Part shown: positions 33,827 through 36,816 of the stretch, one piece after another | Layout: each line of letters opens with the position of its first letter | Numbering within the stretch: the stretch's first letter is position 1 | NCBI GenBank assembly: GCA_014654035.1 | Contig: JACWDQ010000006.1 | Coordinates: 1-64,000 of the forward strand | Origin: Pelagibacterales bacterium SAG-MED19 | GTDB lineage: Bacteria; Pseudomonadota; Alphaproteobacteria; Pelagibacterales; Pelagibacteraceae | Length of the DNA: 64,000 bases | Reading direction: 5' to 3' | The notes under the pieces: model-generated | What the model was told of the DNA's origin: nothing | The model's database searches: none | The model's input: the letters and a program-made list of their open reading frames with translations, nothing else | Made by a program: the position numbers and the translations under genes

Positions 33827-34908
33827 TTTTTAAATATACTTTCTGTTGCTTTCATAAATTTCAAGTTTTCTTTTTTTGTTCCTATTGTTAATCGCAAAGT
33901 ATTTTTAATTTTATAACCATCTTCAGTAGATCTCAAAATAATTCCTTTCATCTTTAATTTTTTATAAAAGTATTTAGCCTTAAATTTGCATTTTGCAAAA
34001 TCTAATAATAAAAAATTTGCAGAAACTTTATTTGAACTAATACCATAATTATTTAAGAAATATTTTAATTTTGTTGCATAAAAAATATTATGTTTAATTG
34101 ATCGTAATATGAATTTATTGTCTTTGAGAGACTCTACAGCTGCTTTTTGTGCTACCCCGTTAACATTAAATGGAGGTTTAATAATATTAAGAGCATCAAT
34201 AATTTTTTTTGATCCATATCCCCACCCAATTCGTAATGACGATAAACCATAAATTTTAGAAAATGTCCTCAATATAAAAACGTTTTCTTTATTTCTAAAT
34301 AAATCTAAACCAGATTTATAATCTACATTTTTCATGTATTCTGCATAAGCATCATCAACTACTAATAAAATATTATTTCTTAATTTTTTTCTTAGCTCAA
34401 TTAATTCAAGCCTTGTTATATAAGTTCCTGTTGGATTATTTGGATTAGCTAAAAACACAATTTTAGTTTTTTTTGTCACTTTTTTTATAATTTCTGAAAC
34501 AGAGACTTTAAATTTTTTTTCTTTTGCAAAAATAACATTTGCTCCAACTATTTTGGCATATATCCTGTACATCAAAAAACTGAATTGTGGAACAATTACT
34601 TCGTCTTTTGGAGTAAGAAAAAGTTGACATAACATTTGAATAACCTCATCAGAACCAGCGCCACAAATAATTTTTTCTTTGTTACAATGAAATTTTTTTG
34701 AAATCTGATTTCTTAATTCTTTTGATTTGCTATCAGGATATCTAAAAAAATTTAAATCTTTATTAGATATTATTTTCTTTACTCTAGAACTTACTCCAAG
34801 AGCCGACTCATTCGCAGAGAGTTTTGTAATTTTCTTTAATCTTCTAATACCTGATTTGCCAGGCTTATAGGCTTCAATATTAAATTTTCTGAATTTTATC
34901 ATTGTCAT
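33823..34908 (-). CDS. hisC: Histidinol-phosphate/aromatic aminotransferase
   Basis: KLSANESALGVS, CGAGSDEVIQML, NPNNPTGTYI, RTFSKIYGLSSLRIGWGYG. Confidence 0.93.
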   Translation of the reverse strand: MTMIKFRKFNIEAYKPGKSGIRRLKKITKLSANESALGVSSRVKKIISNKDLNFFRYPDSKSKELRNQISKKFHCNKEKIICGAGSDEVIQMLCQLFLTPKDEVIVPQFSFLMYRIYAKIVGANVIFAKEKKFKVSVSEIIKKVTKKTKIVFLANPNNPTGTYITRLELIELRKKLRNNILLVVDDAYAEYMKNVDYKSGLDLFRNKENVFILRTFSKIYGLSSLRIGWGYGSKKIIDALNIIKPPFNVNGVAQKAAVESLKDNKFILRSIKHNIFYATKLKYFLNNYGISSNKVSANFLLLDFAKCKFKAKYFYKKLKMKGIILRSTEDGYKIKNTLRLTIGTKKENLKFMKATESIFKK

Positions 34909-34980
34909 GTTTTAAATTTAAGCCTCTTTATAAATAAAATAACAATTTTTTATATAGTATTAGTTCAAATATTTTTAAAA

Positions 34981-35009
34981 TTGACATACTAAATAACTTC
35001 TTGTACAAA
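34981..35009 (+). promoter_or_regulatory. Sigma70 promoter for metX
   Basis: TTGACA (34981-34986), 17-nt spacer, TACAAA (35004-35009). Confidence 0.7.
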
Positions 35010-35014
35010 ATTTA

Positions 35015-35062
35015 TGCGCTGATTTACATGAATTGCGAGCGCTTTAAAAAAACCGCTAAAAA
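35015..35062 (+). ncRNA. SAM-II riboswitch aptamer
   Basis: tGCGCTGATTTAcatgaATTGCgAGCGCtttaaaaaaaccGCTAAAAAG closely matches the SAM-II conserved core (GCGCUGAUUUA...AUUGCA.GCGC...UAAA...GCUAAA); upstream of metX. Confidence 0.88.
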
Positions 35063-35098
35063 GTTTTTTTTCTCCCAATTCAGATTTTAGCTATAAAT

Positions 35099-36217
35099 AT
35101 GAATATTAAAGAAAACATAAAAACTCTTATAATTAAGAAACCTTTAAAACTAGATTGTGGTCAAATAATAAACGACTACCCTTTAGCATATGAAACATAT
35201 GGAACACTTAATGAAAATAGAGATAATGCAATTTTAGTTTGCCATGCACTAACTGGTGATCAATTTGTCACTGGTTTAAATCCCATTACAAAAAAAGAAG
35301 GTTGGTGGTCATATGCGGTAGGTCCAAATAAATCCATTGATACAAATAAATATTTTGTTATTTGTGCGAATGTTATAGGTGGGTGTATGGGTTCTTTTGG
35401 TCCAAGTCACGTGAATCAAAAAACAAATAAGATATATGGTGCAGATTTTCCAGTAATCACAATCAATGACATTGTCAATGCACAAGTAAACTTATTAGAT
35501 CATTTTGGAATTAAAAAACTTTTTTCTGTTGTTGGAGGATCGATGGGTGGAATGCAAGTTTTACAATTTGTTAGTAACTTTCCTGAAAAAACAAAAACAG
35601 CTATTCCTATAGCTTGTACATCTAGCCATTCGGCACAAAACATTGCTTTCAATGAGCTTGGGAGACAAGCTATCACAGCAGACCATAATTGGATAGAGGG
35701 AAAGTATTTATCAAAAGATACTGTTCCTGATAAAGGCTTAGCTGTTGCAAGAATGGCTGCTCATATTACTTACTTATCTAAAAAAGGTCTTCAAGAAAAA
35801 TTTGGGAGAAAACTCCAAAAAAGAGAAGACCTTAAATTCGGATTTGATGCTGATTTTCAAATAGAAAGCTATTTAAGATATCAGGGTTCTGTGTTTGTAG
35901 ATCGTTTTGATGCTAATAGTTACCTCTATATTACACGTGCAATGGATTATTTCGATTTAGTAAAACAATTTAATGGAAATTTATCTAATGCATTTAAAAA
36001 CACAAAAGCTAAATTTTTTGTAATATCATTTACCTCTGACTGGCTTTACCCTACTCAAGAAAATAAAGATATAGTCATTGCTTTAAATGCTATTGGTGCA
36101 AATGTGGGTTTTGTAGAAATAGAGTGCGATAAAGGACACGATTCTTTTTTATTAGACGTCCCCGATTTTTTAAGTACTCTTAAAAACTTTTTAGATAAAT
36201 CATATATTGAATTATAA
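35099..36217 (+). CDS. metX: Homoserine O-acetyltransferase (MetX)
   Basis: [60 protein letters not shown]. Confidence 0.95.
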
Positions 36218-36219
36218 TT

Positions 36220-36816
36220 ATGAAGTCAGAATATAAAATAATTTCAGATATAATTACCAAAAATACAAGAGTCTTAGATGTTGGTTGTGATGACGGATCT
36301 TTAATGGAATTTTTAAAAAAAGATAAAAATGTAGATATTAGAGGTATTGAAATTTCAAAAGAAAAAGTTCAAATCTGTATTTCCAAAGGATTGACTGTAA
36401 TTGAGGGTGATGCTGAATTTGATTTAAAACAATTTCCAGATAAATCTTTTGATTACGTGGTGTTAGGACAAACTTTGCAAGCTTTTATTAATCCAGAAAT
36501 AGTAATTAAAGAACTTTTAAGAGTTGGGAAAAAGGCAATAGTAACAATTCCAAACTTTGGTCATTGGAAAGTGAGGTTAAATTTATTAATTCAAGGAACA
36601 ATGCCTGTTACTAAAACATTACCAAATGAGTGGTATAACACACCGAATATACATATGTGTACAATTAGAGATTTTTTTAAATTTTCTGAAATAATGGAAT
36701 TTAAAATTTTCAAGTCATTTGCACTTATGAATAAAAATGTATCAACTATAAATAATTCAAATTTACTATTTAAAAATCTATTTTGTGAACTTGGAATATT
36801 TTTAATTGAAAAATAA
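36220..36816 (+). CDS. metW: Methionine biosynthesis protein MetW
   Basis: RVLDVGCDDGSLMEFLKK, VVLGQTLQAFINPEIVIKELLRVG, PNFGHWKVR. Confidence 0.94.
   Translation: MKSEYKIISDIITKNTRVLDVGCDDGSLMEFLKKDKNVDIRGIEISKEKVQICISKGLTVIEGDAEFDLKQFPDKSFDYVVLGQTLQAFINPEIVIKELLRVGKKAIVTIPNFGHWKVRLNLLIQGTMPVTKTLPNEWYNTPNIHMCTIRDFFKFSEIMEFKIFKSFALMNKNVSTINNSNLLFKNLFCELGIFLIEK

Follow-up and report, generated by a model that had tools for sequence, protein, structure and literature searches.

The metX SAM-II leader of a SAR11 genus carries a conserved aptamer-refolding strand and might form a translational OFF switch with neither a terminator nor a Shine-Dalgarno sequence

A SAM-II riboswitch located upstream of metX (SAR11_0217) in Ca. 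Pelagibacter ubique HTCC1062 was published in 2009 (Meyer 2009, PMC2704228) and reported again later (PMC5069961), so the sensor of metX is already known. The 52-nt metX SAM-II RNA of the structural studies (its sequence is given in PMC8494917) has been described as a translational switch which occludes the Shine-Dalgarno (SD) sequence (PMC10907184, PMC9373788). In the literature that we searched, no description of the expression platform of the Ca. P. ubique metX SAM-II was found (Poiata 2009 could contain one), nor was any SAM-II with an anti-aptamer strand or a pseudoknot terminator.

Our analysis concerns the metX leader of Pelagibacterales bacterium SAG-MED19 in a window of 64,000 nucleotides, by which we mean the whole stretch of DNA analysed; all features are on the forward strand. 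The metX gene, coding for homoserine O-acetyltransferase, is located at 35099-36217 (NF001209, 521 bits against a cut-off of 331) and is followed by metW, the next gene of the putative operon, at 36220-36816 (TIGR02081, 228.5 bits against a cut-off of 189.5). A gloB-like gene comes after metX-metW, while hisC and a prephenate dehydrogenase-like gene are divergent upstream. Identity of metX to the 80 nearest Pelagibacteraceae genomes is 77-90%. Direct reading of the sequence gives a promoter at 34981-35009, consisting of TTGACA (34981-34986), a spacer of 17 nt and TACAAA (35004-35009), which a generic consensus scan did not report. We collected 131 distinct leaders, of which 129 were anchored on the metX start codon and analysed further. 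The distance from TTGACA to the aptamer is fixed in 123 of these 129, with TACAAA or TAAAAn mostly 17 nt on, which supports this promoter and a transcript start near P1, as a sequence-only reading of this DNA had proposed.

The aptamer spans 35016-35064. The Rfam model SAM_alpha (RF00521) matches 35006-35080 with 27.3 bits and an E-value of 2.4e-4 (cmscan, 351 bases), and this is the sole RF00521 match reported genome-wide; the SAM-II long-loop model (RF01726) gives 23.2 bits (E 0.03). All hallmarks of SAM-II are present, namely P1 (GCGCU/AGCGC, 35016-35020 with 35038-35042), the SAM-binding loop L1 (35021-35037) with GAUUU and AUUGC, and GCUAAA as the 3' strand of P2 (35055-35060), together with an A-run in L3. 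P2a is weaker in the window than in relatives owing to one A fewer 5' of the U-run. The genomic context is also that of a SAM-II, with the methionine genes metX-metW downstream and the promoter just 5' of P1. The score is below the Rfam gathering score of 36 bits. However, this cut-off is reached in none of 196 family genomes, of which 153 have a match at E <=0.1, and even a leader containing the exact crystallised SAM-II sequence scores just 34.1 bits. The cut-off is therefore no judge of SAM-II membership in SAR11, and the low score of the metX leader is typical of SAR11 and does not indicate a degenerate copy. As a side observation, the SAM_alpha cut-off excludes all SAR11 SAM-II matches found here in the 196 family genomes. 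The aptamer pattern occurs in 234 of 300 genomes of the genus, and in 42 of the 44 with a completeness of 90% or more, so the match is not due to chance. Each of the elements named by the sequence-only reading (TTGACA, TACAAA, P1, AUUGC, GCUAAA, A7C and GU7) is located where it had placed them, and its assignment to SAM-II is upheld: judged by sequence, the aptamer is almost certainly a SAM-II and should bind SAM. The covariance-model search reported no match to SAM-V (RF01826) at 34900-35250. Two SAM-V riboswitches (L032 and L033), both above the Rfam cut-off, are present on other contigs of the same genome.

Neither of the output devices known for SAM-II is found in this leader. There is no GC-rich stem with a U-run in 34930-35130, as a terminator platform would need, and no SD after GCUAAA in the metX leader, as an SD-occlusion platform would need. 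The earlier reading had regarded the missing SD as unusual. The absence itself stands, but it is not unusual here, since just 10 of the 58 ATG-initiated open reading frames of the window (at least 100 codons) have an SD-like motif at -18 to -4; the genome appears to rely little on SD sequences. Among metX leaders of the genus, 6 of 129 have such a motif at -18 to -4.

The minimum free energy (MFE) structure of 35016-35098 is a single hairpin of -15.6 kcal/mol, compared with -13.0 kcal/mol if P1 is forced. P1, the SAM-binding loop and GCUAAA are all absorbed into this long hairpin (35018-35091). Its apical part (35046-35070) is an A/U hairpin in which AAAAAAAC (35046-35053) pairs with GUUUUUUU (35063-35070), with GCUAAA in the loop. 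Adjacent to it, an anti-aptamer strand CUCCCAAUUCA (CUCNCAAUUCA; 35072-35082) is complementary to UGAAUUGCGAG (35029-35039) except at one position, forming the helix segments UGAAUUG/CAAUUCA (35029-35035 with 35076-35082) and GAG/CUC (35037-35039 with 35072-35074). An outer strand UUAGC (35087-35091) pairs with GCUGA (35018-35022), and the metX start codon is located 7 nt past the end of the hairpin. The anti-aptamer helix consumes residues U35033, U35034 and G35035 of P2 as well as A35038 and G35039 of P1; because the same P2 and P1 bases are used, the aptamer fold and the anti-aptamer fold are mutually exclusive. The A/U hairpin proposed earlier as excluding the pseudoknot is thus real and conserved, but it is only the apical part of the longer structure. 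Fold stability of the window sequence by itself is not exceptional (z -1.74), so the case for the hairpin is its conservation.

In 130 of the 131 leaders, the sequence 3' of the aptamer begins with G, a U-run whose length is 5-9 (mostly 7-8) and CUC[A/U/C]CAAUUCA or something very close to it. The one leader that departs from this (L012) belongs to another genus and has a terminator. The MFE structures of the 129 anchored leaders contain the anti-aptamer helix in every case, the A/U helix in 128 and the outer helix in 114. The A7C/GU7 complementarity, on which the sequence-only reading had made its switching hairpin depend, is thus kept. A second set of 60 distinct leaders, taken from named genomes and partially overlapping with the first, has the anti-aptamer helix throughout. 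Ten of the 11 positions of the anti-aptamer strand pair with UGAAUUGCGAG in 122 of the 129 leaders and nine in the rest, whereas slid control strands give at most 8 pairs and sequences with a shuffled 3' part reach at least 8 pairs in 5.6% of cases. The strand occurs once genome-wide. An outer strand UYRGC is present in 57 of 129 spacers compared with 1.9 expected, its forms (UCAGC, UUAGC, UUGGC and UCGGC) being those that pair with GCUGA if G-U is allowed, and the long hairpin ends 5-10 nt 5' of the AUG in 114 of the 129 leaders.

The conserved strand might instead have nothing to do with an RNA switch, for example as a DNA-binding site which complements the aptamer by chance. Such an explanation draws on the near absence of two-sided covariation, which is however expected because the aptamer fixes the 5' strand; the lengths of the A-run and the U-run correlate weakly (rho 0.18, p 0.036, kinship ignored). 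Three observations argue against it and make it very improbable. The strand is constant while the spacer beside it varies, and UYRGC, the partner of GCUGA, is strongly enriched. Furthermore, on a tree built from metX the mismatch opposite C35036 has undergone about 23 changes, each yielding A, U, C or a deletion; no leader examined has the perfect complement CUCGCAAUUCA. Leaders in which C35036 regains a G show another defect, as in CUAGCAAUUCA (L118), CUCGCAUAAUUCA (L087) and CUCGCAAAAUUCA. A mismatch kept through so many changes, with substitute defects elsewhere, suggests that the competing helix is being kept neither too strong nor too weak. The long hairpin is very probably the expression platform of metX.

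This platform appears to be confined to one genus: 92 of 100 genomes of the own genus have the combined pattern, whereas all 196 genomes examined from 13 other genera lack it. Terminators are found in most of the SAM-II leaders examined from other genera; the metX leader of genus g4 reads GCUAAAAAGGGGAUGCCCAGUUUAGCUGGGC-U9 and that of genus g6 GCUAAAAAAGGUUUUUUGCCCGGCUUAGCUGGGC-U9. By position, the own-genus U-run aligns with the linker U-run of g6 and not with its terminator tract. The simplest history would be that a terminator was lost and an anti-aptamer strand gained.

Among the leaders of other genera, those before non-metX genes in g3 (L002-L008, L011, L013, L015) and g2 (L185-L192) have GCUAAAGCG facing CGCUUUAG(C/U) within a GGUGG terminator and are clear terminator/antiterminator switches. 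Non-metX SAM-II leaders of g5 (L193-L197, L030) have a hairpin rich in A/U, with a T-run at its end and an ATG shortly afterwards, and are possibly another platform variant. The exact 52-nt SAM-II RNA of the structural work was found in L010 (1509-1590) of genus g4, directly 5' of metX. There it is followed, before the metX start, by a terminator of seven pairs and nine U, and a GCUAAA antiterminator of -10.4 kcal/mol is nearly equal in energy to this terminator (-10.8 kcal/mol). Therefore, the native output of the L010 SAM-II may be transcriptional, at least partly.

The main rival to a translational output is termination at the U-run itself. In such a transcriptional OFF switch, the SAM-bound pseudoknot before U8 would itself be the terminator structure; without SAM, transcription would continue past the tract, after which the anti-aptamer strand would keep the leader open. 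A U-run of 5-9, mostly 7-8, does lie directly 3' of P2 in all leaders of the genus, SAM-II metX leaders of sister genera have the anatomy of termination, and many SAM-II aptamers are located before terminators (PMC1273637). However, termination in the U8 tract, as the sequence-only reading envisaged it, finds no terminator-like GC-rich stem 5' of the tract. In the sister-genus leaders L198 and L200, the matching U-run precedes a separate, true terminator, and it is to this g6 linker U-run that the tract corresponds. Termination at the U-run also leaves the conservation of the anti-aptamer strand unexplained. A weaker point, being an absence from a table, comes from HTCC1062 under sulfur limitation (PMC5069961): metX is not listed with the genes whose change is 6-fold or more, while bhmT behind its SAM-II/SAM-V tandem goes up 34-fold. 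Taken with these observations, transcriptional control is rather unlikely.

Our preferred reading, a translational OFF switch through the aptamer-refolding strand with neither terminator nor SD, falls just short of even chances as a complete mechanism, its direction, level and SAM binding being deduced from the leader. In the order of transcription, the aptamer would sample SAM while the U-run is being synthesized, before the competing strand exists. If no SAM is bound, the completed leader would refold into the long hairpin 35018-35091. There, UGAAUUGCGAG, which belongs to the SAM-binding loop and P1, would be taken up by CUCCCAAUUCA, and the A-run of L3 by the U-run, with GCUAAA enclosed in the loop. 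The metX start codon, 7 nt beyond the hairpin, would stay open and metX would be made. If SAM binds while the leader is being transcribed, UGAAUUGCGAG would stay engaged in P1 and the P2 pseudoknot, and the freed U-run and CAAUUCA could pair with the AU-rich start region and lower initiation on the SD-less metX.

In a genome that rarely uses SD motifs, initiation should depend on how accessible the start region is. Opening of -3 to +13 costs 2.3 kcal/mol in the free fold and 4.7 kcal/mol with the aptamer masked, compared with 3.9 kcal/mol for other genes of the window (the background is from this window only, and the energies omit the pseudoknot and SAM). The same region is easier to open in the free fold in 120 of 129 leaders, which favours SAM as an OFF signal. 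The effect is partly generic: of the 2.4 kcal/mol, 1.0 is also obtained with foreign coding starts, and it is larger in real leaders than in shuffled ones in just 74 of 129. With a wide footprint of -18 to +13 the sign is reversed, the free fold being harder to open (7.6 versus 6.0 kcal/mol with the aptamer masked). Pairing of AUUCA with the start codon region AUGAAU was considered separately and is possible in most leaders, but its selection is not supported, since Asn is usual as codon 2 in g4 metX lacking the strand and foreign starts behave similarly.

The opposite direction, in which the SAM-free hairpin hides a U-rich ribosome-binding region 5' of the AUG and SAM exposes it, has in its favour that the long hairpin covers the region just 5' of the AUG and that the openness of -20 to -1 rises from 0.42 in the free fold to 0.58 when the aptamer is masked. 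Against this, the start codon is itself more accessible in the free fold, sister-genus metX leaders show the anatomy of an OFF switch, and SAM-II governs methionine synthesis genes and is regarded as an OFF switch (PMC1273637). We consider a SAM ON switch improbable, and SAM probably acts as an OFF signal at metX. A further way of lowering expression at high SAM would be loss of the mRNA, if the bound fold leaves the U-rich strand 35063-35082 accessible to a nuclease or Rho. This strand is AU-rich and is released in the bound fold, but the proposal is speculative, and we hold it to be similarly improbable. For translation as the level of output, the chances are about even.

SAR11 are among the most abundant groups of ocean bacteria and depend on reduced sulfur, and the metX enzyme makes the acceptor for methionine derived from methanethiol. 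The metX switch might offer a compact, strongly conserved model for riboswitch control without a terminator or an SD. The terminator leaders of sister genera and the anti-aptamer leaders of the own genus form a natural series in which the output changes while the sensor is kept. One of the leaders (L181) is from a genome which we take to be that of Ca. P. ubique HTCC1062, and it has the same platform.

The metX SAM-II of HTCC1062 (PMC2704228) shares aptamer class and gene with the leader described here and, going by L181, also the platform, and is no different in kind of sequence. The terminator/antiterminator SAM-II of S. meliloti metZ (PMC9373788) and of genera g2, g3, g4 and g6 have the same aptamer, and their refolding likewise competes with P2. 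However, in those leaders GCUAAA pairs with a GC-rich terminator strand, whereas the metX leader has no terminator and its competing strand has the SAM-binding loop and P1 as its target. The SD-occlusion switches, namely metX of the Sargasso Sea metagenome (PMC10907184; SAR11-like) and S. meliloti metA (PMC9373788), also have the same aptamer; in contrast to them, no SD follows GCUAAA here and the 3' end of P2 is about 35 nt 5' of the AUG. The SAM-II/SAM-V tandem before bhmT (PMC9481103, PMC11508383) is likewise a SAM-II aptamer in SAR11, but it has a terminator hairpin and a second aptamer, SAM-V, both absent from the metX leader. A third type of SAM-II output, which acts on SD-less translation initiation and decides once only, during transcription, is a tentative interpretation, somewhat less likely than not. 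What is well supported from the leaders compared is a conserved alternative fold: the sensor is a known one, and the output part, with a predicted effect on metX, appears to be a new variant of one genus.
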